From Paracyclopina nana (lineage: Eukaryota; Arthropoda; Copepoda; Cyclopoida; Cyclopettidae), in the NCBI GenBank assembly GCA_019096065.1, contig JAGUCH010000002.1:9994501-10058500 (forward strand): 64,000 nt of DNA, written 5' to 3'. The position numbers and the translations under genes were made by a program. The notes under the pieces were generated by a model. The model was given only the letters and a program-made list of their open reading frames with translations, ran no database searches and was not told where the DNA came from. Position 1 is the stretch's first letter, and every line of letters begins with the position of its first letter. Positions 9,601 through 30,169 of the stretch are shown in pieces.

Positions 9601-12600
9601 ATGCCGTTTTTCAAGCGGAAGGACAGCAAGGAGAAATGCGGAGATTCTTCCCATCCAGCTGGCAATGGAACCACTACCAACAAAGAAAAAGTCAACTACA
9701 AGTCCAGACTGGAGCACAAAATGTACTTGGTGAGACTTTTTCGATCACATGCTTAGCCTACGCAAATGCAAAATACATAGCTACGTAGTAAGGTCTTCCA
9801 AAAAAAGTTTTACATCTTTTCTTAGATATTCGCTTTCGTGACAGATAGTAGCATTTTCATAAATGTCGGATATGATTAAACTGACACTTCTAGATCAAAG
9901 AAGTATCGGTAAAGGGTGCTATATGCTGCATTATGTATCTTACCTTTGCCGTCCGCCTCCTTTCGTCGTCTACGATTCCTGTACTTCACGGAAACTTGAG
10001 ATACTAAGACCCAGGAGAGGTGCAGCTGTAATGGCCTCTAGCTGAGTATCCCCTTTTCAGTTTTCTGAGAAAAACTGTCAGTTCAGCAAGCTGTTTACGT
10101 TGCATTTGCCTGACTCGCCTAAGAGAAATGAGGCCAGGCGTGGGTTGTGTTTTGCCAAGCTATTTACAAAATTGGGCTTTAAAGGTTCTGCAACGATTCA
10201 TGGAAAACCTGGCTAACCAAGGTATTTCTTGCTATATGCAGAACATTGGCATAAATGTAAATTGCGCTTTTACTGCTCTGGCTCTAACCGTCCGTCTCCA
10301 ATGTAGCAGAGTAATTGGATTCTCCAACTTTTCTTCTGCAACTTTTAATGACTTTCCGAGAGTACCATCTCCAGTTACTCAATAAGGTAGACTAGCTTCC
10401 ACTAGATTTTCGACAATCGTTTTGTCCGCGTGCATGAGTAATGAGCCCATTGATTTTTTTTCTAGGCCACTGAGAGCCCTGAGCCAGTGTATGACATAAG
10501 TGACTGTGCCTTGAAGAATGTTCCCTCGGGAGTTTATTCAAGATGCATGATTCAGAGGAAAGAAGCTCTTCTCCTGCAAGTAAGTACTGATTTACCATCC
10601 GTAATAAATTATATAAGTTTGAGTTGCCATAGATAATTCGGTACATCTGTTGAAATCCGTGTCCGCAAAAATCCGTGCCGTTATATTCCATTCCGTTATA
10701 TTCCGTTCCGTAAATATCCGTTCCGTAAATATCCGTTCCGTGAAAATCTGTTCAGTCAAAATCATCTCAATTAAAAACTGTTCAATATATTTTAATGAAC
10801 GTTGCCTTTTAGTTGAAATAATATTTTTTTCATCCATGTATGTCAAATCTTGATTTTTCCGTTCTTTACCAGAATTTCTCAGATTGGCTACTTTGAAGAG
10901 CAAGGATAAAATCAGTAGTGCTTTCTGGCAATGAATCAATGTAAGGCCTTTGTACCTGAAGTGGTGTAATTGATTGTTAATGGGGGCTTAAAAACCTAGA
11001 CTCAGTAAGTGTATGGGGAATTCCTCTAAAGAGACCAGCCATCTTGTTTGTTAAGCCTTTTTCCAGTAGCATGACAACAAAAGAGTTATGCTGTTGCGTG
11101 CGCATGTTTTGATGATATATAGCTGATGCGAAAACACTAGCAACTTTTAAAAATTGAACTCACCAAATCTTCAAAAGAAAAAGACTACCCATATGTACTT
11201 GAGGATTACCGGAGATTTGCGGAGCTGATTATCACGGAACGGATTTTTACGGAATGGAATATAACAGCAAGGGTTTTTACGAAACGGAATATAACGGCAC
11301 GGATTTTTACAAAACGGAATATAACAGCACGGATTTTTGCGGACACGGATTTGAACAATACATTCGATAAATCAATTAGATGATTCTTTTTGTCCGATTA
11401 CAAAGAACTTAAATAATTATTTTCTACAGAATAATGAATTGGTTGCGCTGAACGGAGGAGGTAGTCTGGGAGATCTTTCAAAAGTCCTGCAGGTGTTAGA
11501 TCTGCAGAACAATCAGCTGGAAAAACTGCCCGAGGAAATTGGACAGCTCAAGTCCTTGAGAGTGCTCTACGTGCATCACAACAAACTGAAGAAGTTGCCC
11601 GATTCCATAGGCGATTTGTCGAGACTCCAAAACCTTAATATCAGCTCAAATGCTCTGAAGGAGCTACCCGTAAGTGTTTCCAAGCTGAAGCGACTCAAGA
11701 CCCTCGACATCAGCAATAATGCCAAATTAAAGAAGCTTCCAAAGCAGCTGGGACATTGTCACAGCCTCTACAACCTATCGGGTCCTGACTATGAGGTCAT
11801 TCAGTACCCAAGTGCTAGCATTTGCAAGGAAGGGCTCCAGTCCATCATGCGTTTTCTAGCGAAAGGTAAGGCCAACCTCACATAAATAAGTTTAACCAAA
11901 AACGCGTTGTTTTTCTTGCTTTTGATGTATTTTGTTGCGAGCATAAACATTTTTTGTCGATCAATTCATGTAACAGCTGCATTCTTGGAGGACGCGTTTT
12001 GAGGCCTCAATTGAGGATGTGAGCAGCCAATGTCCTTGGCCTAAATCGAGTGGCATCATATTTGCTTTGTGCAGAGCACTGAGAAGCTGTTTCTTTCGTG
12101 TGGCCATCACAAAGCTGAAAAGCCCCTTCGAAGCCCGATTTTCCCATAATTTCCGAATTGTTACAAACACGGCGCCTTCCCCTGCGTGAACATGCAACCG
12201 CAAAAAGCAAAAAGCATTAGATTCTGAGAGAACTTGTCATCGAAGTAAATGCCTACACAAGCTATTTTGGCAGGGAAATGGAACATGAAGCGAAAGCTGA
12301 AATCGAGTCGGTTTTATGGCTATTTTATTCGTTCTCCTGAGAGCTCGTACTGTTAAACGATGAAATCTTTCAGAATGTGATATTGAGTATATCGATCCCC
12401 TGAAGTATGCTCCACCGGATGATGGCCTCCCCCTGAAGAACGGCTGTTCTTTTGAAGAGGATCCCTACGAAAAGCTGGTGCGAGGAAACCTTCAACTTTT
12501 AGACAAACAAAAGGTACCACCACTACATAGAGCAAACAGTTTTGCATTCATCATCTTTTTACGCGCGAGAGTAGGAGGTCTAAGTAATTAAGAAAATATG

Positions 12601-14674
12601 CTCTAGGAGTCAAAGAAAAAGGAGATGGAGGCCTTGGAACTGGAAAGGGCTCAGCGAGAGAAAGAAGAGGCCGCATTGGCAGCTTCGATGCAAAATTCCA
12701 AGTTGAAATTGTTAAGTGCGATGGCTGAGGAGGAGGCAAAAAGGGAAAATGCCGTTAGGGAAATGCAAGAACTCAAGGGCAAAGAGAAGGAGGTCCTGAT
12801 TTCTTCCCTTTCTAATGGTAAACTGGACATGATGCCATATCAGACAGGGAACTTTATATCTCTAGCAAACATTCTTTTTATAGCTGAAAACCGAACGGAT
12901 GCTCTAATTAATGAGCTAATGAAAACGCAAAAGTCCATGAATGACCCGAAGAAGGTGTTGGAAGAAATGGAGCGCGAGCGAAAAGAAATGGAGGAAATGT
13001 TCACCATTAAAGCAGGAGAGTCTGAAAAGCTAAGGGAGCAAGATGTTCTAAGTAAGACCTGCGCACCTCGGTTTTATCGATGTCAGCCTCAATAATTTGA
13101 TTTTAGGAGCTATGCAGTCTGTCATGGAAGAAGAAATGAAGCGTGAAACTCTGAGACGTCAATACGAGGAGGGCAGGAAAGATGTTATCAGCTCGGCTTT
13201 ATCAAAGTAGGTTTTAATCCCTGCTAAAGACGAACAATTTACCTTAGCCAAGAGTAATCCAGAGAGCTGCCTAGCCAAGAGTTATTTTCTCCCAAACCAC
13301 TTTTTTTAAAGCAAACTTTCAGTTCTTATTTGTGGAAGCATCAAAGGAATGCCAGCACCAAATATTAGAGACATTTAGCCAAAGAGATTGCCTCGTTTAT
13401 CGTATTATTACCACCCATTTCAGAGACTTGGAGTCTGATCGGGCGGTGGAAAATGTGCTCGCAACGAAGGGAAAGCAACAAAAAGAGCTTATTCAAAACT
13501 TGCTGGAGGACGAGAAGTACCAAAGGGATGCATTTGCTGCCTTGTTTATGCAGCAGGACTCGAGGCACAAAGAGATTTGCGCACAAGTTGAGCAGATACA
13601 ATCCGAGTTGGCTTCCCTGACTATGGTTGAAATGACTAAGAAGGATCTCAAGGTCTACTATCTCTATTTTGCATTCTGGTCTCATTTCTGAATAACAATT
13701 TTTGGTGACTGCAGGTTGAATTTGAAAATGATCTGATGAAGGAGAAGAGAGAGACTCTAACACAGATGCTCATGGCCTTAATGGAGCAAAAGGAGGAAAG
13801 GCAGACAGAGCTTCACTCCAGACTTAATGAGTTGGAGAAGCACAAGAGCGAAGAGACAGAAAACTATTGGCTGATTCAGTATCAAAAGCTGCTAGACTCA
13901 AAGCCAAAGGTAGGCATTGTTTGCCAGCTAATTACTTCTCCCTACAAAGTTGCCTCTCAATTTAAACTAACGTGATTATTGCCTCCCCTACCAAAGAACA
14001 CTTGGAAAATAATTCCCATTCGAAATTTCTTGCAGCTGTACTGCTTCGGGCGGAGTGGTTTTTTACTGAGGTTTATTTTCTTCTAGGGCTTAATGGAAGC
14101 AGAAAAGGCCATAGACCCACAACTCAAGGCAATCCTTACAAAGGCAGGAGCTGAGGAATACATTCCAGTATTCGCCAAAAAGGGAGTTGGAGCGAAGCAA
14201 GTTATTTACATGAATGACAAACAACTCTCAGAGGTACAGTCCTATTGTGCATTTTCTGCATATATTGCTTGATTAACCGCGTGCCCTTCACAGTTGGGGG
14301 TTCATAACGCATATCTGCGCCAGAAGATCATAGCAGCCACTGAGGAGGAGGTTAAGGTGCCCAACAAGACGGTGGACTCGACTCCGTCAGCCCCTGCAGC
14401 CTCCGAGGCTAATGATATTCCCAGTGCTCCTCCGGCTCCACTTGAAACGTATCAGTCCAACGAGTGTGTGGTTTGCCTCGAAAATAAGGTGAGTCATATT
14501 TCATTTGCCTTTCGGCATACAAAAAACCTTCTGTAATGGCATATATTTTATTTGCAGTGCAACATCATTTTCCTTCCTTGTGGTCACGTTTGCTCATGCT
14601 GGAAATGCGAGTCGGGATTGACAGAGTGTCCCTTGTGCCGAACCGAAATAACTCAAAAAGTCAGGCTCAATTGA
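9601..14674 (+). CDS. LRSAM1: E3 ubiquitin ligase LRSAM1 (LRR-coiled coil-SAM-RING)
   Basis: Twelve exons are proposed: 9601-9729, 10466-10579, 11430-11865, 12374-12513, 12607-12817, 12884-13051, 13107-13206, 13424-13652, 13715-13909, 14087-14233, 14294-14488 and 14558-14674. They give about 726 residues, close to vertebrate LRSAM1. The N-terminus MPFFKRK matches the family start. Leucine-rich repeats (LQVLDLQNNQLEKLPEEIG type) fill exon 3. A long coiled coil follows, then the conserved ENYWLIQYQKLL segment, a SAM domain, two PSAP motifs (TPSAP, IPSAP) and a C-terminal C3HC4 RING (CVVCLENK, then CGHVCSCWKC and CPLC). Known relatives bind TSG101 through PSAP/PTAP motifs and ubiquitinate it, acting in endosomal sorting and xenophagy. 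All key RING residues are present. Confidence 0.95.
10648..11356. repeat. Foldback element with subrepeat-built inverted arms, in LRSAM1 intron 2
   Basis: The left arm (about 10648-10760) reads AAATCCGTGTCCGCAAAAAT and continues with repeated CCGTTATATTCCGT and CCGTAAATAT blocks. The right arm (about 11215-11356) is its reverse complement, ending GCGGACACGGATTTGAAC. The arms are themselves made of short tandem subrepeats, and about 450 bp of unique AT-rich sequence lies between them. No transposase is present. Target-site duplication is not clear. Confidence 0.85.
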
Positions 14675-15187
14675 ACTGATCTTTCATTTGTAAGAAGAGG
14701 TCCGTTTTTCCAACTGTCTTCGTGTTCTAAGATGAATTAAGTGTCGAACTGACTGTTCTAGCTGCCAAAATATGGTATATGATTTTATCTAGTGATATGC
14801 TACACATTTTCTGTGGAAATAATTCATACTACATCTTTTACAAAGAGTCATATCTCAAGTTTTTGACTGTTTCAAATAAATCGTGCACATTCCAAATAAA
14901 AACCGGCAATTTATTGTTATCATATATCATTACGTACGGAAGACCTTTACAACACTTTTTCTGGATAAATGCGCACAGTACATGAATAATAATATTGGTA
15001 GTACAGAGTTTGTGGCCAAAAATATAACAGAAGAACTTTTTCAAATTGTTGACACAAAAGTATTCAACGAAAGTAAGGGGAGATTATTTCGCCTCGTTCA
15101 GATCTACAATAAGAGAGATTGTACAGTAAACATAATATTAGATTGTAATGAAATGATGATATAATATTGGGGGTTCTCTATACAGAT
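14675..15187. terminator. Convergent 3' ends of LRSAM1 (+) and the PDZ-IF gene (-)
   Basis: Two AATAAA hexamers on the + strand near 14876 and 14895 fit LRSAM1 polyadenylation. TTTATT near 14909 (AATAAA on the - strand) fits the opposing gene. The two 3' UTRs may therefore meet or overlap. No coding sequence is seen here. Confidence 0.5.
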
Positions 15188-18100
15188 TCAAAGTTGAGTT
15201 TGGGACACAGTGATTTTCTTCTGATACGAAGTCTCCGAAGTCCTCTCGACTGACGTTCTGGCGGGAGGAGTTCTTGAGTTGGTTGATGCGCTTGAGTCAC
15301 TCATGTCCATGGAGCGATCATTGATACCAAGACGATCCTCCTCCGTCTCAATGAGTCTTCTGAAGACTGCAATCTCCATGTCCAATGCGATTTTGATATC
15401 CTGCAGCGCAAGCAAATGGCAACTGTGAAACAAGGATAACAAGAATTTAGGCGCATATTATGTACCTGAAGGTTTTGATACTCCTTAAGTTGATGGGAGA
15501 GCTCGTCGAGCAGCCTCTTGATCTCGTCATCTTTAGCGGCCAGCTGGGCCCTCTGGATTCCTTTGACGTCCTCCATTTCTTGAGCCAAATCAGCAATCTT
15601 CTGGTTCAGAGCCAGATTGGCACCCTCCAAATCAGAGACTTTGCTAATGAGAGCTGCAATCCGGTTTCTGCCCTCCTTCAGCTCCTGATGTGTTGAGGCG
15701 TTGCTACCTCTGGCGCTGCTCAATTGGGACTGAAGATCTCTGACCCGATCCTCGTATATCTTCTCAAAGTCCTCACGGCTTTGCTTCATCTTTGAGTCGT
15801 AGACCTCGCGCAGCTCCTCCAGAGCCTTTTGAAGCCTGTCCTCGTACTCCTCTTGGAGCTTGCCATCCATCTCAGTGATCTCGACCTCCTTGCGGTGCTT
15901 CACCTCGGTGAGCTCTTTCTCCAAAATTTGGAGCTTGAATTTGAGATCCTCTTCTAGCCTGGCACAAGTATTTTCCAAATCAGCGGATTTCAGCTGCTCC
16001 TCGTCCAGAGTCCTCTTGGCCTCGGCCAACTTTTCACGCAGCAACCCGATCTCGGGGAGGCTGTCATCCAACTGGCTTTGCAGCTTACTCTTGTCAGCCT
16101 CCAAGTAGTTCATCTTGTTGGCCATGTTGCGCATTTCATCCTCGAGGTTGCGCATTCTGTCCGTGGCGTGAAGCAAGTCACTGTCCTTCTTCTTCAGCTT
16201 GCTCTTGATGTCCTCGTTTTCCTGCAAGAGTCCCTCAGCTCCCACCTTGAGTTGATTGTACTGCTTGTTCATGGCGTCCAGAGCAGCCTTAAGGTCATCA
16301 ATCTGCTTCTGATACATATCCTTGACGTTGGTGATCTCAATCGTTTGATGCTTTTCAAAGGTCTTCACTTGATGGGTGAGACGGAAGTTTTCCTGTTGTA
16401 GCTGCCTCACTCGGTCGATGTAGCCTATGAAATAAGAAGATGGACTTACAATCTGCGAGGAAATTTTCCAAGAGTGAGTACTCACCAGCCAGCCTATTGT
16501 TCAAGTTCTGCAGAGACATTTTCTCCTCCTTCCTCGTCAAACGAGAGCTCTCGGGCATGTCGGGATTGGGGTAGTTATCCAGGCCAAGTTCATGCAGGCT
16601 CTGCGTAGATTTGTACTTGGATTGGGAGCTAGGTACACCCATGGTCTCAACGATGCGAGTAATGTTCTCGGTGGACCTCTTGGTCTCCTGCGAAGATCGT
16701 TTTTTTAGTATGCTAGCCTGCATGCTCTTGGTTGGATTTTAATATGCTTTTGAACAGGAGTGAAAATCTCGTTTAGACTGAATAATATAGCACAAGTGTG
16801 TGTGTAAAAGTGCTTGCATATTGTTATTAGCTACAAGTATATGTGAGTATAGTGACGTTGCGTATATTTAAAATGCTGTGTATATGTGTGTCTATATACC
16901 ACCAGGAAGTCCCATACGGCCTCAACCAGCTCAGTTTCACAAAGGCTGCACAATTGGCAGTGGTGCCTGTCACCGGACTTGCGACACAAATAAAATGTAC
17001 TATAGAGGTATGCAATGTTTGAATAGTTATAGCTAAAGCTGCAACAGTAGATGAGGCTTTAGCAGGTTAGCTATTTGCACAACAGTACGTAAAGCACAAT
17101 AAGGTGATCGTTTAGTATCAAGACTTACATGGGGAACTCTCTGCTATTTTTGGTCGCGATCCGAAAGTAGTAGGAGTATAGTAGGAAAAGAAAGCAACAA
17201 AGTATTATTATTGACTCAAAAAGGGTGCAAACTTGTCTAATTCACCGCAACATTTTCAGCATATCCCCCAAAAGATACCCTCCATTAACTGTTTGTAAAT
17301 GGCAGATCATTACCTGGATAATCCTGCTGTTGGGCGGGTAGAGGGCCCCCGAGGATTTGGGCCTCTCCATGAGGCTTCCAAAGTCAGTGTTGGCAATGAT
17401 ATCTCGGACGGTGTCTTTCACCGAGGGACTGATATACTGCTGCTGCTGCTGCTGTTGCTGCAGCTCTCGTCGCTAATAGAAATGAAACTGTGATGCAGTC
17501 GAATATGTAAGTGTATGTGCATAACAAAAGGTGCTCGAGCAAAAACAAGCTAAAAATTGCCACACTTAGATCGGCATTACCTGCTGGGCTTGTGCAGCAG
17601 CCTGCTGAGCCATGAGCTGCTGCTCCTGAAGTTGCCTTTGGATCTCTTGTTGCCTTTGCTGCTCCTGTTGTTGCCTCTGGATGTCTTGCTGCCTCTGCAG
17701 CTCCTGTTGTCTCCTGCAACAAAGGATAAATATAGCTTTCAGTTGCTTTTCATGTGAAACGCATGTACGCACTTGTATTCCTGCTGTTGCCTGAGAAACT
17801 CTTGCTGCTGGAAACTCTGGTTATGCCCCCCTTGAGCATGGCCTGGCAAGCTGGCCGAATTTCCGGCCTGTCCAAACTGAAATAAACATCATTCATCAGC
17901 GCCGACAATGGGAGCATTGAGCAAAAAGCATGTGCAAGCAAAAAAGAAGTGGAGTAAGGTGAACAGGTGCAATACTTGTGCGCGTTGCGTCCTTGGAGAG
18001 GGAGAGGCCGGAGCCCGGCCGAAGGACGTGTTGAAGCTGCGAGCGGACCCCGAGCGGCTGATGGGCTGTTGCTGACCGTGTATAGCTTCCCTCATCTGTT

Positions 18101-20576
18101 GATTGGATACATAGCATTCGGTTACAATTCGAAAGCATGCATTATACTTTAGGCTTGATGCCCTTGACATATTAAAGAACAAGTGGAACGCGCGATAAAG
18201 CAAACTGCTTATACGTAGCAGAAATAAGCGTGACGAGTGGTTAAAAGAGCGTGATTCTGTGCAAAAAAAAGCTAAATGGCAACGTCCATATCATGATGAA
18301 ATCATGCATGTTTCTATACTTATGATTGATGGCAGCAAAACTCACCCATTTCGAGTCGACCTCTCCGGAGGCCAGGGAGTTTCTATCGCCCCCATCATCC
18401 ACGATGATGTCAGGGTTGGGACCGACGTCCTCCTCCCTGAGCACCACGAGCTTGATTTGGTTGCCGGCCTGCTTGATGACCCCGACGGCGTCGTCCACGT
18501 TCCTCGGCGTTTTGCCGTTGATGGTGAGAAGCTTGTCGTTCTCGCGGACGCCATACCTGGCCGCCTGGCCTCCAGGCACGACTCTGGCCACGAAAATGCC
18601 AGTGTCCTTCTCCTCGTACTTGTCGAGGCCTCGGTAGATGAGGGAAAGGCCGAAGCCTCGAGAGCCCCTCTCGACGGTGATGGCCCTTGGCCTGAGCTGC
18701 ACGACCATGTCCACCTCCTCGCTTCGAATTGGCAGTCTGGAAAATGAATCATGACAATTTCACGCTTCAGTCTCGTCGTTAATGCCACCAGCTGAGGATC
18801 ATCATGGTTCTTTGATGGCAGTGCAAAAATTGGACGCTTCCGTAAATGACATAAAACCACGAGTTGCCATAGGCACAATTTTCCCTAATCGTTCCCCTCC
18901 CTGCTGCAGTTGCGTGCGCGGACGCATTAATTATTATGATCGCATTTGCGTACTATGATATAGTTAAACGGGAAGAAGCCTGTATAGCATTGTAGCCGAT
19001 GAAGCCATGGGTGGGGCCGCACCTTTGAAGCAAAGGTAGGAATGTCTATGGGATGATGATGGAATTCCACTAAAGTGCATTTCTACATTAAAGTCACCTC
19101 TATCTATCTCCATGCAGATAGAGAATGTGGCAACAAGTCACCGGAAGGCGCGCATAATAACAAAGCGCCGTGCATATAATACGCTAGCTTGCTTTACCTT
19201 CATGTAGAGTATATAGCTAGTAGGGGAACTTTTACTGTTCAGCCCCGAGGCTTCTTTTCAATGAGCCACGGTGAATTTCTCACAAATTCTTCTAGCGCGC
19301 AATAACTGCAGAAAATAATTTTTTTGCTGCGTCCATGCCTATTAAAAGCCCGATAGATGTGCGTTTGCAGCATAAACTAGCGTGAGAAACTCGCATGTGC
19401 GCGCAAATTTCGGCTGTAAATTGTAAATCAATACGATCGACGGGCGAAAAGCATTATCCCGCACTGGATTTCAACTATGGACTCTCATCAAGGGCTATCA
19501 AGTTACAAATGCTGCTCTAGAATGTTGGCTTGACAAAAAAAGGCCAGCTAAGCAAATGTCCGTCACGCATTCCGGACGGGAGCGCCCACGTAAATCATTT
19601 GATTTCGATGCATCCTAATGAGCAGTTGGGAAAGATGCGTTATTCTTTTTTTCTTATCCTGGCACCGAACCAGTTATTTCGAGTCGCGACGCCGGCCCTC
19701 AACGTATCCCAAAAGTGGGATTGGTCCGTTTTTTCTCTCTCTTCCGAGTACCATGTACTTTGGGATTCACCTGGCGCCTACATTGAGACTATTCTCGTTT
19801 GCCATGGGAAGCGCGCGCACGTACATAAAGTATATATATGCGTCCTGACGTATCGCAAATATGGCTGCCCTGAAATTGCACCGGCCAACCGCTCGTGCAG
19901 CAGGTGGGTCAAAGACGTCGCCGTGGTCCTGAATGGGGAGGTTTTCAGGTACTTGTTGCTACATCGCTGTATGGCCTGTCCAGGTGAGGAAGCCACTGGC
20001 TTGTCTACTACACTACCTTAGGCGTTGCCATGACTCAACCGTCATCTTGGTTCAAAGCCATCTTGATCTCGCTAGAACCCAACTTTCTCGAACCAAATGA
20101 TGCGCATACCATTGCGGAACTGCGGGAGACCCATTCAACATGCGCCAATTGCTCGCATGTTTTACTGTTGTGGAATGCGCGATAATTTTAAAAGGGCACC
20201 TTACCTTATGAATGCGTCCGCGGACGATGCTAGCAGAGCGATGGTACCGCCGTTGGCCTGAGGCTGATCTTGAGCGATGCCAAAGAGCAGGGGTTGATCC
20301 TCAAGCAGCGATCTCGGAGGCCGTACTGACGAGCTTAGTGGGTGTCGCTTTATTAGCGAGAGCTAGTGCGCTCGCACATAGTACCTGACTGGTGCATGCA
20401 TTGCATGCGAACATAGCAGGCTGGCCCCTTCGCTCGTCAGGTAGTCCATACCTGGATCCCTTCGCTCCGCTCGCTTTCCCCGAGAGCAGCAGCTTAGCCG
20501 AGGTCGACTGCAAAAACATTCCTGCCTCGCTGCATGCGCTCATACGGACGCCATCGTCGTCAGTTTCAAGCACCAT
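15188..20576 (-). CDS. PDZ domain + Q-rich linker + intermediate-filament rod protein
   Basis: Proposed exons in transcript order: 20576-20452, 20333-20205 (both tentative), 18736-18346, 18095-17976, 17876-17773, 17713-17581, 17472-17314, 16687-16486, 16424-15466, 15400-15188. All junctions keep phase, giving about 844 residues. Residues ~103-190 form a PDZ domain with the carboxylate-binding loop RGFGLSL. Residues ~215-387 are Gln/Ser-rich. Residues ~447-799 are an IF rod opening with LQNLNNRLAGYIDRVRQL and closing with EIAVFRRLIETEEDRLGI. The rod is about 352 residues, the lamin length rather than the shorter vertebrate cytoplasmic length. The ~45-residue tail has no lamin-tail Ig fold, visible NLS or CaaX box, and ends QTQL. 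This suggests a cytoplasmic, lamin-derived filament protein. A second start, MQASILKKRSSQ at 16723, could give a conventional IF without PDZ. Exon-level evidence for the IF part is strong; the fusion needs transcript proof. Confidence 0.75.
18737..20204. other. Probable intron of the PDZ-IF gene
   Basis: This 1.47-kb stretch separates the PDZ exon from the tentative exon ending at 20205, which has a strong donor (ATAAG followed by GTAAGG on the - strand). Its last two bases complete the split codon opening the PDZ exon. I see no convincing coding exon inside. A 163-codon + strand ORF at 19530-20021 has low-complexity, unpatterned composition and was not accepted. Confidence 0.45.
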
Positions 20577-20830: not shown

Positions 20831-21788
20831 ATGGCGACTGCAACGGAGGAGCTTTTTTTGAGTACATTTGAAAACAACCTCGAAAGCATGCTGGTTGCTC
20901 ACGCGCGTCACCGAAGGTCGCCGTAAGTAGCGCAAAAAATATAACCAAGGCGTCATAACTAATTGGAATTTTGGTAGAGCGACGCAAAGTCCCCTAGTCT
21001 TCATCCCCGAGGAAGGTGGCAAGCAATGCCGACCGGCCAACTCCATCAGCTCCATTGGCTACTTGGCTCTCGTCACCTCGGTGCTCAACGCAGTGCTACA
21101 AGCCTCAAACAACATCAACAACAACAACAACAACAGAAACAACAACAACAACGACGTCAACAACAATAACAATAACGTCAACGTGGCCAACCTGGCATCC
21201 ATGCAAATGAACATGAACATGGTGATGGTGGGACGTCAGTTGGAGCACCTCAAAAAAGACCAGCAGAGGCTGATGGCAAAAATGGAGGCCAAAGAAGGGG
21301 AAAAGCCATCTCCTGGCAACGATTGGATGTCCAACGCGAAGCTGAAGCTGTCTAATATGCTGGATGACATTCCTGCCTCAGAGGAAAAAAGGCCAACCAC
21401 AGGAGGATCTTTGTGGGATTTCTGGAATGCCCTCAATGGCGTCCTCTTTCGCAGCAGAGCAAAAAGAGCCGTCAATGCTTTTTGTGCAGTCGATGCCGTA
21501 TACTTTGGGCTAACATATGTCGATTTTTGGATGTCCTCCACCACCATGCTAACCGACGAAAACCGAATGGCCATCGAGTTCTGCACCTTTGCTCGAGGAA
21601 AAAAGGCGGAGGCAAAAGGCAACTCTACTTTGGAGAAAATGGACGCAATATTGATGTTGGCAGCCGCAAAGTACATGCAACAAATGACCTCAGAGAGGAT
21701 AAGCTCGGCCAAATTGATGCAGGCTGCAGATTACGGGCGCAGTAGTTATAATAATAGCAGTGGCTGCAATCGAATGGAAATAGCATAA
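20831..21788 (+). CDS. Asparagine-rich protein of unknown function
   Basis: Exon 1 is 20831-20922 and exon 2 is 20978-21788, separated by a 55-bp GT-AG intron; codon phase is kept (CC|A). The product is about 300 residues. After a short acidic N-terminus comes a hydrophobic stretch (SSIGYLALVTSVLNAVLQA), then an Asn-rich tract of about 35 residues coded by AAC/AAT repeats, a Met-rich segment and a basic linker. A C-terminal region of about 150 residues has spaced cysteines and aromatic residues (WDFWNALNGVLFRSRAKR). Arthropod genomes commonly carry proteins with a hydrophobic segment next to poly-Asn, and this may be one. No function is assigned. Confidence 0.75.
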
Positions 21789-22611: not shown

Positions 22612-24588
22612 ATGGTGATCAAAACAGAAGCTATCGTCGTCTTATCAATGATAGGTAAGGGAAAGCTCGAATTAGTTAGTCTTTTACTTGAAGGGCTCAT
22701 TGCTTATCAACCAAGGTAATTGGTAATTAAAAAGTTTTGGCAGCAAAGCTATTTGCAAAAAACAGGACCAAGATCGTTTTCAACTGCATGGCCCAACTTA
22801 GTGATGATGTAATTTTTTTACTAAAAGAGAACACCAAAAGTGTGCTCATAAGAATTTTTGAGGTGATGGTTGTTGCACTTTTTGTAGATAGAGAACTATT
22901 TTGAGCCATCTTGGGACATAAGAAAACTATTCCAAATAATCCAAGACCTTTCCATGCTCTTATTTGCTTACAATATTTATATATATGTATTATTCAATTC
23001 AGGAGCCTATTTATGAATAGGGAACAAACATCAGCCATCTAATAATCAAAACGGGAAAGTTGCGACAAATTTGGATCAAGAGTTATTAGCTTTTAAGCTA
23101 AGCCTACTTTTTTGCATTATTCCTTATTAGGCAGGACACGATACAAGATAGTTGAGGCAGTTCGCTTTTTTTGTCAAAATTGGACAAATCAGTAACTATG
23201 CTAATACTTTAAAATGTTTTGGCTTTGTGGGTACACTATTAATTGATAAAGAAAAACGATTAATATTGTGAGTCATCAGTTTTAGCACAGTTGCAAAAGC
23301 TTATTTTTCCGGTAGCAGGTCTAATAAAGAAAGATGGATTTGAGAAAAAAACTTGTCAAGATGTTAGGAAGCTACTAAGTTCTCAAGTTTGTGGCAAAAC
23401 TTTCTTATCAAATTTCTCATTTTTGGTCCGTTTATGTTGAGTTTGGTTGTAAAGGCTTGGTAAAGGTTAAGTTTTCGTACTTCTGATTAACCAAAACCCT
23501 TCAAACTCATGAGACCAAAAGAGGTGGGAAAAGTGGTCTACTTAAAGCTATCAAAAGTGAGTGAAAATGATCAGTACTAAAATAGGAGGCTTAGGTAAAA
23601 CGCAATTTAACGGAAGGAAAAAATTTCCTTTATAGGTGAACACAGCTTTAGTGTGCCTTAAAAAGCCGAAAGCATCAATTGAGGTCCTTAGCACCTAGCT
23701 TAATATTTGCAATAAGAAGCAAATGTGATTATTTATTTTAAGTTCTTATTGGAAATGGCTGAACGGAAGGGCAAGAAATAATCTCATCGTACTTTCGTGT
23801 TTTCCTAACTTTTTTTGTTTGGATCGATCAAATATGATCGTCATTATGTCGAAATATCGACAATAAAGTGCAGCTGAACACAGGCTTCTTCAGGCTTTAC
23901 ACTTCATTTTTTAAAATATTTTACTTTGGATCATTAATGTAATTCGAGCGCAAATATTGGCACGACAATGTTACTAAGACAGCTGAGAAAGGTAATGCAA
24001 ATTGTCAAGGAACGTCATCAGCCTAGCAAGGGCCACAAAAATAACTTTGCAAAAACTGGCTTACTTTTGAAGAGCCGAAAATGTACATTCTTTGCGTGAG
24101 AGTGACAGCTACTAGAAAAAATTGTCTGAATTATTGCTTATAATCTTTCCAGTGGCAACCACGGCTGGGCTGCAATGCTTTCAGTGCGGTGGCCTCTCTG
24201 AACTACCTTGTGAACAATTTGACACCGACAAAGTGGAGTACCAGAAAGTTTGCAATAGTACCGTCCAAAGTTGCATTACTTCGTATCTGAACGGAAGTAA
24301 GCCCACAGCTGATCTATGCCACTATGTAGACATGCTTATCCCTCTTACTTTTCAGTGGTTAACTTACGCGACTGCTGGACAAACAAGGCTGAGACGACGA
24401 CTTGCGACGGCGTGAATTCCCTCATGATTTGTATGTGTGCCAACTCGGACTTTTGCAACTGCCACAGCAACCCCGACCTCAATGGAGAAAAGTGTCCTCA
24501 TCCTCCGAACTTGAGCAACAGCATCAAACTCGATGTCGTGATTGTATATTCGGTTGGAGCTCTGCTTAGTATAATGTCTATGCTATGA
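22612..24588 (+). CDS. Ly6/uPAR-type (three-finger) GPI-anchored protein
   Basis: Exons are 22612-22654, 24153-24296 and 24356-24588, phase-consistent, giving about 139 residues. Exon 1 codes most of a signal peptide (MVIKTEAIVVLSMIVATTAG). The mature protein opens LQCFQCGG, the usual Ly6 start, and carries many cysteines including CMCANSDFCNC near the end of the fold. A hydrophobic C-terminus (VVIVYSVGALLSIMSML) after a small-residue region fits a GPI-anchor signal. The domain is followed by PHPPNLSNS, where the attachment site would lie. Relatives act at the cell surface in channel modulation, septate junctions and sensory behaviour; the specific role is unknown. The first intron is about 1.5 kb. 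The stop lies only 34 bp from the stop of the opposing kelch gene. Confidence 0.85.
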
Positions 24589-24622
24589 AAATAGAGCGGG
24601 TCATCGTCATGTTTTTCAGTTC

Positions 24623-26798
24623 TTAGCTTCCCGTGAAGAATTTGTCCGTGACCAGCTGCTTTCGCACAAGGACACCGGAGAAAGGTGCAAAGTGACCAGT
24701 AAATCCCTCTAACAGCGAGGTCCAAGTCTTGGTCCGCGTTTCAAATTTATACACAAAGTTCTTCCTGGCACTTTGGTATCCTATTAAGTAGAGGTAGCCG
24801 CAGTGCGCGAACAAAAGCCGCGGCTCGAATCTGAGGTCAAGAGCTGGCAGCAGAGGCTGCCATGAGGGCTGGTTGTCCGATAAATCGATTGTCCACATGG
24901 CGTTATTCCCGACTTTGGAGCTCTTCGAGTTGACCACGTAGATGACCGAGCCCATTGCGGCCACCGCCGGTGTCTCGTGACCGTATCCTTTCCGCGAAGG
25001 GAACTGATCCACTGACCTCCATTTACCGCTGTTGGTATCGAGCACATCGCAATAATTGGGGCCAACCACACACAAGGTATTGTTGTCGATGGTCACCACA
25101 TTGAAGCAGGTTCGGTGGGCTGGGAGCTCGCTGATCATCTTCCACTGCACAGACGAGGAGAACCAGTCAGCCTCGTGAATCCGATAGACCTGGCGTGTAA
25201 TTGCCAGCTTCCTCGACTGGCCTCGAAACGTCACCCTCCTCGTAGGCATGCCAGAGGCCGAGCCGATGAACTCGTCAGTGAGGCCGCCAACGATGTAGAG
25301 GTGTTTCTTGAGGTATGCAGCACCGAATTGCAGCAGCCTGCGAGGCATCGTGTTTGTCATTCGAAGCCAAGTGAGACTGGTGATTTCGAACACAGCCACT
25401 TCGTCGCTCATGATGTCGTTGACCGAGGGCTTTCCTCCCCCGCCAACGATATTGCCACCAATATAAAATATAAACGAATCGCTCGCGAGCAGCGTTCCAT
25501 TTATCCTGTGTATTGGGCCGTAATGCTGGTAAAAGCTGGGACTGCCTTGCATGGACACAGCCACTGACATTGGATTGGGCATCACCACGGTGTTTGGCGG
25601 CGGAGGAGGCAAATTGAACTGATAGCCGGTGAAGAGTTGCGCCTTTTGGCGCTCGTTGTACATGTGGCGAGTTTCGGGGTCGTCATCCTCGCCCAAGGTC
25701 CAAAGGAGGAGAAAGACGCAGTTGTCACATATCATGGGTCTTGGGGCGCGGTCAGGTAAGGGTGCAACGGGTAACCCAAAGCGAGCTAAAAACACTTGGA
25801 AATAGCCGTCAGACAACCCCAAGAAGAGCTCTCGACATTCTTCGATTAGTCTCAGTGCAAGCTCGCTATCATCTTCATTATCCGGACACCTTTTGTCCTC
25901 GATCCATGCCATTATTGCATCGCACACATTCTTTTCAGAACGGATGCAGAGTGTGGGCCGACAGAGGATTTCGTAGATCTCCTCAAAGCTCAAAAAGGCA
26001 AGAATTTTGTCCCCAATCAGAGTTTCGAACCGGCAATCCACAAACTCGAGGACGGACTCCTTCAGATCTTTGTTGCCATAAGTCTCACTCGCATTCCAAA
26101 CCTAAAACAATAACGCACCCAAATGAGACAGGAAAAAATAAACCGTATTGCTTAAAACTGGTTGCTACCTGCTTCATTTTCTACAAAACGAGTCATCAAT
26201 AAATTCGATCTGAGAACTGACATTTTGTAGCAAGACTCACATGCGTATAATGGCCTTTACACGTATGTTTTTTTGATGCTATGGCGTGCATTAAGCACAA
26301 AAAAGAGAGAGGGAAAGATGTACCTTAATCAGGAAAGGAACGTCGATGGTGACCGAGTGTTCAAGCTTGTACATCAGCCATTTGTTGCATTTTGTCACGA
26401 GCTGCTCGTTGGGGTGGTTCATCTGGAGGAAAAATGCCGATTCTATGAGGTCAAAGATGTTGTCTTCGCGGATAGTGATTGATCCCGTATAAAAGTAGTG
26501 CAGTAAAAGGGTAAAATTCTCCAACGAAATGCCTTGAATTATGTACTCATTCATAGAGCTGAAATTCAAAGGGTAGATAAATTATTGAAAACGTCGGAAA
26601 ATGAATGGATGTTGTTTACCTCTCGACAAATCCAGAGCAGGGGTCAGTCAAAGTCTTCAAATAATCGGAATGAAGCGAGACAATCAGCCTATGCGCAGAA
26701 ATCCTTGTCCCTTCTATTATGAAGTGAACGTCAACAAAATCTTCAGACAACCTGCGCTTGTTGAGCTCAAGTCCTCTGTCGATTTTGATCGTTTCCAT
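24623..26798 (-). CDS. BTB-BACK-kelch protein
   Basis: Three exons in transcript order: 26798-26620, 26558-26324 and 26101-24623, giving about 630 residues. Exons 1-2 form the BTB/POZ domain (DVHFIIEGTRISAHRLIVSL, then the YFYTGSI segment typical of BTB). The start of exon 3 is the BACK domain (ILAFLSFEEIYEILCRP). The rest is a divergent kelch propeller with recognisable repeats such as LYIVGG and FIFYIGGN; some blades lack the double glycine. Family members are usually substrate adaptors for Cullin-3 ubiquitin ligases. I cannot assign a specific ortholog. A Gly-rich loop and a proline run (LPPPPPN) interrupt the propeller. Convergent with the Ly6 gene and divergent from acyl-CoA oxidase. Confidence 0.88.
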
Positions 26799-27112
26799 TT
26801 TATTGCAAATTCCGTCAGTGGATAAAATTCATTAAAATTAAAAAATCGGAAGCATAAGAAATCACTGAGAATTAGGAATTTAAAGATCTGAGATCACCAG
26901 CTCCAGCTGAGATCAAAGCAACGTTATTCGACTGTATCAACTATAAACAAACTATTATTTCTCATAAACGCCAAAAATACAAAACGTAAGATGTTAATGT
27001 ATCAGTAACTCTTTTGAAATCCTTTGCATAAGCTGAAAACAATAACAAATCCATTTCACTACACTTCTCCTGTCAAAGAGCTACTTTTTGGGTGGCTCTA
27101 TTTAAAGGCAAA
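26799..27112. promoter_or_regulatory. Divergent promoter region, kelch (-) / acyl-CoA oxidase (+)
   Basis: The two start codons are 314 bp apart in opposite directions. The interval is AT-rich. A TATTTAAAG element lies just before the oxidase ATG, too close to be a normal TATA box for that start. Shared regulation is inference. Confidence 0.35.
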
Positions 27113-29485
27113 ATGTTGACCCAGATGCGCAAGTGTCACCATATTTTGGCTAGGTAAGATAGGAAGTGGCCAATACACCAGTGAAAATAATGCTCTTGTT
27201 GCAGAAATGGAAAATTTGTCACCGGTTATGCAACTGCGGCGCCATCTTCTGTGAAGTCAGATGGCAGCCTCAAATCTCCTGTCACCAACCAAATGCCATG
27301 TGAAAAACTTCGCGCCGCGTGGGGAGCATCTGCGTCTCCGTCTTTTGACGTCGATAAAATGAAGCATATCCTTGACCATGACAACCATGACATGAGAGAC
27401 AAGTTTAGGGAGTTCCTCAGGCAGCCTTTGTTCCAACCTAGGTTTGACTTGACACTCGAAGAGGAGCGCGAGGTTGCCTTGCAGCGCCTAAAGGCTGTTT
27501 GCGAGGCTGGCTTCATTTCAGTACTTGATTTCCACAAGAACCCTCTTAAGGTGTTTGCTGCTCATGAATTGGCAGTGATTGACCCCTCCATGGGGACGAA
27601 AATGACGGTACAATTTAACTTGTTTGGTGGGACTGTGCTCAAGCTGGGCACAGAAAGGCACCACCACTTGCTTTCTGGCATTGATTCTCTGGAGGAGGTT
27701 GGCTGTTTTGGCCTAACTGAACTTGGATATGGCAACAATGCAGTTGAAATGGAAACCACTGCAACGTATGACCCCAAAACTGATGAGCTCATTGTCAACA
27801 CTCCAACGCCACTGGCACAAAAATACTGGATCACAAATGGAGCCTGTCATGCTAAGCATGTCGTGGTTTTCGCTCAGCTCTATGTCAATGGCAAAAACGA
27901 GGGGATTCACGGGGTCTTGGTGCGATGCAGGGATAAGGACCTTAAGCCCATTCCTGGAGTTACTGTTGAAGATATGGGCTTCAAAATTGGACTGAATGGT
28001 GTTGACAACGCAAAGCTTTCCTTTGATCATGTTCGCGTTCCTCGTACCAATTTGTTGAACCGATACAGTGACATCACAAGCAATGGAGAGTAAGTTCAAT
28101 GAGATTATAGCTATGTTAAAGAGGAAAAATCATGTTGCACAATGTAGGTTTGTGACTGAAATTAAGCAAGGAGGAAGGGCCAGATTCCTTGCTATGGCTG
28201 ACCAACTTTTATCTGGAAGAATCTGCATTGCCAGTGGTTGTGTCGTAAGTTATTGGGAGTAATTTGGAGTCAATGTGGATATTAGTTGTAAAGGGGCTGA
28301 TTCATTCCAGATTGGTGCAAAGGTGAGCTTGGCTATTGCTCTAAGATATGCTGCCACGAGGTTGACTGTGGGACCCTCTGGGAAGTCTGACACTCCAATC
28401 TTGGCATACCAGCTGCAGCAGAGAGCACTGATGCCTTTGCTTGCCTCCACTTATGCCTACACCTTTGGACTGAATTACGTTAAGAGAGCCTGGGCTTTTC
28501 AGCCCAAGGATGGGTCCAAGCACATGGAAGTTGTAAGAATGTGCTGTGCCATCAAACCTATGACTGCATGGCATCTCAACAAGACTGTTACAGTCTGTAG
28601 AGAGCGATGTGGAGGGCAAGGATACTTGAGTGTCAACAGATTCGGTGCAATCTTTGCATCTGCTCATGCTGGAATGACCGCAGAAGGGGACAATTCTGTC
28701 CTCATGCAAAAGGTTAAAAGTCAACTATTACTTCTTCATTACGCGCTGCTTAGAAAGTCGATCTTTTGCAGGTTGCCAAGGAACATTTAGGTTTATTTAA
28801 GCCACACACAGTTGAGAGGCCCCATAACGGAGTTATTGATGCTGGAAATATCCATCACTTGATTTATCTTCTCAAAGCAAGAGAAAACCAACTGTACTCT
28901 GATTTGCAATCAAAGATGAAAAAAGCTTTTGTGTATACGAAGGCTGGCAAACAACTCTCTGGATTCGGCCTCAAGTCCATTGGAAATAGTTTGCAAGAGA
29001 AGGGAATTTTCAACGCTTGGATGTATGAAGACCAGGATAAAATTCAGGCCTTTGCCAAGTCATATGCTGACCGACTTGTGGCTGAAGCATTCCTTGAGAC
29101 CATCAGCGAAAACACAGGAAAAGGAGAGGAATACAAGGATAGTCCAATCGGACCAACCCCACTCACAATCAATGCAACTGCGGATTTGGAGCCAACCCTC
29201 AAGAAACTGTTCCACCTCCACCTTTTGTCTCGAATCGAATCCGATTTGTCCTGGTTTCTGGTTAGTGATCTTCTTTCAGAAAAAGGCGGAGCTGACATCC
29301 TGGATTACAGCCGTAAGCTTTGTGCTGAATTGGCTCCAGAGGCACTCAACCTTATTGATGCCTTTGGTCTTCCCGATGATGCTCTTGCTGCACCCATTGC
29401 CACAAATTGGGTCACTTACAACGAAATTGATAACCAAGGGGAACTGGGACCTAAAGAAGACTTCATGGCTATCTTGAAGAAATGA
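27113..29485 (+). CDS. Acyl-CoA oxidase-like flavoprotein, putative mitochondrial presequence
   Basis: Exons are 27113-27153, 27205-28089, 28148-28244, 28311-28712 and 28772-29485, giving about 712 residues. The product matches the acyl-CoA oxidase family, which oxidises acyl-CoA to trans-2-enoyl-CoA with FAD and passes electrons to O2, making H2O2. Visible signatures are [14 protein letters not shown] (substrate/FAD region), [11 protein letters not shown] and AEGDNSVLM; the Glu there is at the catalytic-base position. Exon 1 is tiny and codes [18 protein letters not shown], basic and without acids, resembling a mitochondrial presequence. The C-terminus is ILKK, not an SKL-type PTS1, and no PTS2 is visible. 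The exon-1 choice rests on a good donor and codon completion (AG|A); an alternative first exon cannot be ruled out. A poly-A run follows at 29550. Confidence 0.88.
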
Positions 29486-30169
29486 AGGATTCCTTGCTTC
29501 ATGGAAATTTGCCCTATTTCATCAACATGAAAAACCTTTTAATATTACAAAAAAAAAAAAACGCGAATTGATAATAGCTAGTGCCAAGTGAAACTTTTTC
29601 AGTCTTCTAGCCTTAAAAACCTGCTGCTTAGAAGCTTTTCGCTGTTTATGGACGGGTTTCCAGTAACGCCGTTGATAACCTCTTTCCGAGAATTAAGAAA
29701 GATAAGCTAATTTGCGAGAGCAAATAGTTGACTGCAGTTTTACCTTGAATGAGTAATTGCCCTCTTAGAATTTGAATGCGTTGGCTGCATCCAAATAGAG
29801 AAGATTTTAGACCTGTACCACGCCATCACATGCCATTTTCTAATTTGGAGGCAAGCTCTAACTCGACATGCATGCATTATTTCAATTATCAATGATCGAT
29901 GTACTATATTCATTTTGCTATAACTTAATGTTGTCCTACACCTTAACTTGCAAGGAGCTTAGTCGCATTGATCATACAGCCCAAGTGAATTTATGATATG
30001 GAGGTGCATAAAGAGAATTCTCGCCTTACTCAAATTAAGTAAGAATGTGGATGCAGTAGCAAAACTGCTTCATCTTGAGGCATAACACTCACGAACTTTA
30101 CCCTCCGCTGAGAAAAGCAGTTCTACCAGCAAACAGCATTCTAAGAGCGAACGAGGCTTTATTTTTGCC
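29486..30169. other. Intergenic, no feature seen
   Basis: AT-rich spacer with a 12-A run near 29550. No ORF or repeat is supported. It should contain the oxidase 3' end and the promoter of the downstream SDR gene. Confidence 0.4.

Follow-up and report, generated by a model that had tools for sequence, protein, structure and literature searches.

An N-terminal PDZ domain on an intermediate-filament (IF) protein has been described for LhsLamin-C of the salmon louse, which, according to the part of Kollmar 2015 (PMC4448529) accessible to us, combines this domain with a lamin-type rod and is devoid of a nuclear localization signal (NLS), the Ig-fold tail and the CaaX box. A paper published in Protoplasma in 2022 (PMC10125929) repeats the PDZ architecture, places it in many other crustaceans and, in its accessible part, denies the kinship of this family with lamins. 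Hering 2016 (PMC4829535), likewise in the accessible text, maintains that arthropods and related animals no longer have the ancestral cytoplasmic IF gene, counts copepods among the three groups in which cytoplasmic tasks have passed to a lamin, and describes duplicated copepod lamins without NLS, leaving place and function of the copepod protein for clarification. Here, we analyze a gene of this kind, termed the PDZ-IF gene in the following, in a stretch of 64,000 nucleotides (the window) from the copepod Paracyclopina nana. The gene resides on the minus strand and includes eight exons which, joined from genomic DNA, form one frame for a protein of 750 residues. A PDZ domain, a Q-rich linker, a lamin-length filament rod and a short tail follow each other from the N- to the C-terminus.

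This architecture is already in print and the P. nana gene belongs to a known copepod family, the LhsLamin-C type, with which it has in common the N-terminal PDZ domain, the linker, the lamin-length rod and the missing lamin tail domain. A preliminary description of this DNA had stated that an N-terminal PDZ domain was not known from any IF protein; this statement cannot be upheld, as Kollmar 2015 had presented LhsLamin-C and the architecture was repeated in 2022 (both seen in their accessible parts). The same description had attributed a lamin-derived cytoplasmic IF to the animal, which agrees with the naming of copepods in the accessible text of Hering 2016. What is new are a conserved C-terminal tip with the pattern of a class-I PDZ ligand and the phylogenetic trees calculated for the rod. 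Overall, we regard an origin from a duplicated lamin, combined with PDZ-based attachment at both ends of the protein, as the best explanation for the copepod PDZ-IF and as a likely one.

Domains and terminal motifs of the PDZ-IF family

In the deduced protein, Pfam detects a PDZ domain (E 2.8e-11) and a Filament domain (PF00038, E 3e-50) that covers profile positions 1-313 of 313, and the rod is complete with conserved start and end motifs. The nearest solved structures are the PDZ domains of PSD-95 and Scribble for the head and lamin A/C for the rod. The ligand loop of the PDZ domain, GFGL, is nearly invariant (at least 90%) in 35 aligned relatives. Counted from its start motif to its end motif, the rod spans 356 residues, just as in 38 of the 51 lamins measured and in 99 of 108 family rows, and it contains the extra lamin-type heptads of coil 1B, a block that is missing in the single GFAP row. 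Neither a lamin tail domain (PF00932, Pfam, E up to 1) nor a CaaX box was found, the C-terminus reading QTQL, and inspection of the tail by eye, without a predictor, did not reveal an NLS-like cluster, such that all three features by which a functional nuclear lamin is recognized (NLS, lamin tail domain and CaaX box) were looked for and not found in the protein. The preliminary description was right in joining PDZ domain and rod, in assigning lamin length to the latter and in regarding the lamin tail as lost.

Relatives were collected by protein searches, in all three of which only the 8000 candidates sharing most words were scored, one listing the best 120 of 1118. The rod region served as query in the first search against 5.8 billion proteins and returned 157 matches, the best 120 of which are listed. 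A profile built from 12 distant members was used in a second search and yielded 87 rows, 21 of them new and 19 counted to the family, which therefore comprises 136 rows (117 from the first search and 19 from the second), each row being a cluster at 90% identity and the rows being of uneven relatedness. Both PDZ and Filament domains are assigned to 77 of the 120 proteins listed (best 120 of 157; hand count from a precomputed Pfam column), while three have a lamin tail domain and are ordinary lamins. Simple patterns recover the PDZ loop in 91, the rod start in 127 and both in 84 of the 136 family rows. The species-named relatives among the matches listed, Tigriopus californicus, Lepeophtheirus salmonis and Eurytemora carolleeae, are all copepods annotated by NCBI; the two named non-copepod rows of the second search are a fish GFAP with Filament alone and a ZO-3 with PDZ but without Filament. 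Names resembling those of transcript assemblies are carried by P0021 (TRINITY) and by P0031 and P0121 (GFUD), and the GFUD prefix is tied, in the accessible parts of the papers concerned, to the copepod Neocalanus flemingeri. P0031 and P0121 are different PDZ-IF sequences on separate tree branches, which suggests a second paralogue in this calanoid.

A C-terminal [ST]-x-hydrophobic sequence constitutes a class-I PDZ ligand. The P. nana protein ends on -SQTQL and fits this pattern via -TQL. Among the 113 family rows that contain the rod end, 96 terminate in [ST]-x-[LIVMF] (simple pattern), namely in TQL (85), TML (3), SNM (2), TEI (2), TQI (2), SNI (1) and SDV (1). At internal positions of the tail the same pattern occurs 110 times in 3874 (first 97 rows). 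Distant members with otherwise diverged tails, P0042, P0081, P0084, P0090, P0114, P0116 and P0132, retain the tip. No mention of a C-terminal PDZ-ligand motif in this family was found in the accessible text of open-licence papers.

Several observations count against attachment via the tip. It is missing in 17 of the 113 tails, and six of these, P0091, P0092, P0095, P0097, P0101 and P0103, make up one lineage that, judging from the sequences, seems to have lost it. When tails are grouped by identity with the last three residues excluded, the share of groups with the tip is 11 of 19 at 50% and 26 of 37 at 70% identity. Ten further rows without the tip (P0002, P0024, P0028, P0029, P0048, P0056, P0065, P0079, P0080 and P0098) look cut, frame-shifted or intron-read in our judgement. 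P0093 also belongs with the tip-less lineage. The remaining tip-less tail is that of isoform X6 from the salmon louse (P0022), which ends differently and has additional residues ahead of ETRKSTEN, and alternative splicing may switch the tail tip in this case.

The presence of a PDZ head and a tail tip in one protein, both retained in most of the family, raises the question of whether subunits bind each other, PDZ head to T-Q-L tail, resulting in self-linking or capping. Class-I PDZ domains are marked by a histidine at position alphaB1 that reads the Ser/Thr at position -2 of the ligand. In the sequence alignment, the PDZ-IF head has a two-residue gap here and its segment TPRNVDDAV is without histidine, helix limits being approximate. 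Of the 97 family rows for which the alphaB segment could be located, six contain any histidine in it; this residue is placed at the start of the segment in P0092 and P0095 only, both of which have no tail tip, and before or further along in the others. A link between head and own tail is disfavored because the head lacks the alphaB1 histidine, and we consider it unlikely.

Descent of the rod

The genome (92 million bases on 10 contigs) was searched with the rod region as query. This uncovered the PDZ-IF gene and one other IF gene on contig C3; weak matches on contig C7 were taken as unrelated coiled coils. Going by this search, the PDZ-IF gene is single-copy. The gene on C3 (G000:C3:2994893-2996770, minus strand, four exons) encodes an ordinary lamin in which SPLSPTR precedes the rod and which contains GVKRKR, a lamin tail domain and, at the C-terminus, CAIM. 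Its rod of 349 residues is seven residues shorter than in the 38 of 51 lamins mentioned above. With an ordinary lamin encoded elsewhere in the genome, the PDZ-IF gene would be relieved of nuclear duties. Among the other PDZ domains detected in the genome, the nearest shows 42% identity and lies within a multi-PDZ frame on C3.

Two rod trees were calculated from 47 and 50 rows, hand-picked from the listed relatives and not identical in the two sets. For the 47-row tree a strict pattern left out nine intended rows (two PDZ-IF proteins and seven lamins), and one non-lamin IF, on a long branch, is the only one contained in the trees. In both of them the PDZ-IF family is a single clade (100/100). 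Its sister group is a clade of lamins (100/97) to which the L. salmonis, GFUD and C3 lamins and further unnamed ones belong, and the two clades are united at 100/99, apart from the lamins of insects, ticks, decapods and onychophorans. Within the lamin clade, the C3 lamin pairs with that of L. salmonis (100/95) and the GFUD lamin stands outside the pair. The P. nana PDZ-IF gene is nested among family members with named copepods on both sides. These placements point to a copepod as the source of the DNA; a tardigrade was considered as well and rejected, the named relatives being copepods. The seven-residue-shorter rod of the C3 lamin was considered as a marker of descent and discarded, as the lamin of the tick Ornithodoros has it too.

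These trees favor lamin descent of the PDZ-IF family without proving it. Three observations count against it and would suit the opposite reading, that the family stands outside all lamins and is not derived from them. A constraint that unites the full set of 26 lamins to the exclusion of the family is worse by 7.7 log units and is not rejected by the approximately unbiased (AU) test (p 0.084), the branch leading to the family is long (0.59), and the two rod introns of the PDZ-IF gene match neither rod intron of the C3 lamin. On the other side are the copepod lamins as sister group, recovered at 100/99 in two row sets, and the 356-residue rod typical of both family and lamins; a non-lamin origin appears rather improbable to us.

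Even less probable is that the PDZ-IF protein is an unusual nuclear lamin and not a cytoplasmic IF. Its rod is lamin-like in length and nearest to lamins and its relatives are named lamins by NCBI, but the tail lacks the lamin tail domain, the CaaX box and, by eye, an NLS-like cluster, and the Ser-Pro sites preceding the rod of the C3 lamin (SPLSPTR) are missing at that place, though SP pairs occur in the linker.

Gene model and the disputed junction

The elements of the gene are as follows, with positions referring to the window.
18736-18346, coding 18346..18708, minus strand: exon 1, PDZ domain with ligand loop GFGL
17976..18095, minus strand: exon 2, linker with conserved block PISRSGSARSFNT
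17773..17876, minus strand: exon 3, linker
17581..17713, minus strand: exon 4, Q-rich linker
17314..17472, minus strand: exon 5, last part of the Q-rich linker plus block SVKDTVRDII..NSRIIQ
16688..17313, minus strand: disputed intron between linker exons and rod exons, 626 bases, containing an alternative in-frame start MQASILKKRSSQ
16486..16687, minus strand: exon 6, IF head (KYKSTQSLHELGLDNYPNPDMPESSRLTRKEEK) and first part of coil 1A
15466..16424, minus strand: exon 7, bulk of the rod, including a lamin-length coil 1B
15188..15400, minus strand: exon 8, end of the rod and a short tail that lacks a lamin tail domain, a CaaX box and, as judged by eye, an NLS
15188..15202, minus strand: C-terminal tip QTQL and stop, class-I PDZ-ligand pattern
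14910..14915, minus strand: candidate polyadenylation signal AATAAA, a six-base match only

All seven junctions are of the GT-AG type and the frame stays open across each of them, in line with the eight phase-compatible exons in one direction that had been predicted initially. The introns measure 250, 99, 59, 108, 626, 61 and 65 bases in 5'-3' direction. The coding region extends from an ATG at 18708 to the stop at 15188. This ATG is probably the start of the PDZ-IF protein because many relatives begin at the same methionine. An acceptor at 18737/18736 lies on the first coding exon, and therefore at least one further exon must be present upstream in 5' direction. With a start at 18708, the region 18737-20576 would either belong to the 5' untranslated part or lie outside of the PDZ-IF gene, and the span of 15188..20576 assigned to the feature in the preliminary description is to be shortened accordingly as far as coding sequence is concerned. 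A coding start near 20576 was considered and rejected on the grounds of the many relatives beginning at the methionine of 18708, though P0022 and P0027 reach further upstream. The residues that these two proteins have ahead of this methionine speak against the assigned start, and a caveat for the model as a whole is that it has been read from genomic DNA.

The junction between exons 5 and 6 (17314/16687) deserves separate consideration. The residues that flank the intron (..SR[IV][IV]Q-ETKRSTEN..) are contiguous in P0001, P0002 and P0005, and a strict junction motif is present in only 32 of the 84 rows having both parts. The listed relatives, transcript-named ones included, in which PDZ and Filament reside in a single protein agree with the one open reading frame proposed initially. 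In 40 of the 117 family rows among the best 120 of 157, for example in P0008, P0011 and P0012, Filament occurs without a PDZ model; many of these are short, and rod-only isoforms are possible, which counts against PDZ and rod always being joined. That two neighboring genes, one for a PDZ protein and one for a tail-less IF, are phase-compatible by mere chance could be argued from these rows, from the second in-frame start MQASILKKRSSQ (MQASILKK) just upstream of exon 6 and from the joining intron being the longest of the seven, but it is nearly refuted on sequence grounds and most improbable, as the relatives' proteins read across the junction and a start like MQASILKK is found in none of the protein starts of the listed relatives, P0018 beginning with MFLQETKK.

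Further frames surround the gene. Immediately upstream, on the opposite strand, a 285-residue open frame that contains a long run of Asn is situated at 20931-21788 (plus strand) of the window. By eye, we noted coiled-coil protein frames with a RING-finger-like end at about 12300-14700 (plus strand), small cysteine-rich frames of Ly6-like type at 24116-24588 (plus strand), kelch/BTB-like frames at about 24600-26800 (minus strand) and acyl-CoA oxidase-like frames at 27200-29500 (plus strand).

Proposed function and comparison with known systems

We propose that the PDZ-IF gene most likely goes back to the duplication of a lamin gene on the copepod lineage. The duplicate would have been stripped of NLS, lamin tail domain and CaaX box, and would have acquired the PDZ exon and the Q-rich linker. 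The rods, lamin-length and complete, would assemble into filaments, for which a location in the cytoplasm is suggested because the nuclear parts are missing and cytotardin sets a precedent. The linker could then hold the PDZ head out from the filament, the head, in which the ligand loop is present, may bind the C-termini of membrane or junction proteins, and the T-x-L tip, seen to be conserved, may dock on class-I PDZ scaffolds, e.g. of the Dlg or Scribble type. The outcome would be PDZ-based attachments at both ends of the subunit, perhaps replacing the missing cytoplasmic IFs in epithelia. It is plausible that junction proteins are tethered into a cytoplasmic IF network by the PDZ-IF protein. 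For the more far-reaching idea, that a PDZ domain and a PDZ ligand on every subunit wire a lamin-derived cytoplasmic network to border scaffolds or to itself without separate linkers, we see the chances as evenly balanced.

If true, such a filament, with a PDZ domain as its head and a PDZ ligand in its tail, would anchor the cytoplasmic network directly at junctions. The tail tip makes this anchoring model testable with peptides and simple deletions. The rod trees, in turn, bear on the printed disagreement over lamin origin between Kollmar 2015 and the Protoplasma paper of 2022.

Among the annotated relatives, P0014 (Lamin-C-like isoform X2 from Tigriopus californicus) and P0057 (lamin-L(I) from Eurytemora carolleeae) exhibit the same architecture, with 72 and 59% identity over the searched region, respectively, and both end on -SQTQL. 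Their source names say lamin and do not reflect the PDZ domain. Nuclear lamins of copepods and insects resemble the PDZ-IF protein in the length of the rod and have its rod-end motifs in common. Lamins contain an NLS, a lamin tail domain and, as a rule, a CaaX box, and are not known to carry a PDZ domain. Scaffolds of the Dlg and Scribble type contain multiple PDZ domains and no IF rod; their PDZ domains are similar to the PDZ-IF head, but have a histidine where the head has a gap in the alignment.

A further counterpart is cytotardin from the tardigrade Hypsibius dujardini which, going by the accessible text of PMC4829535, is lamin-derived and, like PDZ-IF, is without NLS, lamin tail domain and CaaX box. 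It is located in the cytoplasm, where it forms belts along epithelial cell borders (PMC4829535, accessible text). It differs in that the term PDZ is absent from the main text of that paper, as available to us, and in its origin, which is described there as separate. Closest is LhsLamin-C itself. The annotated L. salmonis protein P0022 is probably the product of the same gene; it matches the P. nana protein at 66% and has a different C-terminus. In the accessible part of its description, LhsLamin-C shares with the P. nana PDZ-IF the missing nuclear parts, the lamin-type rod and the PDZ head.

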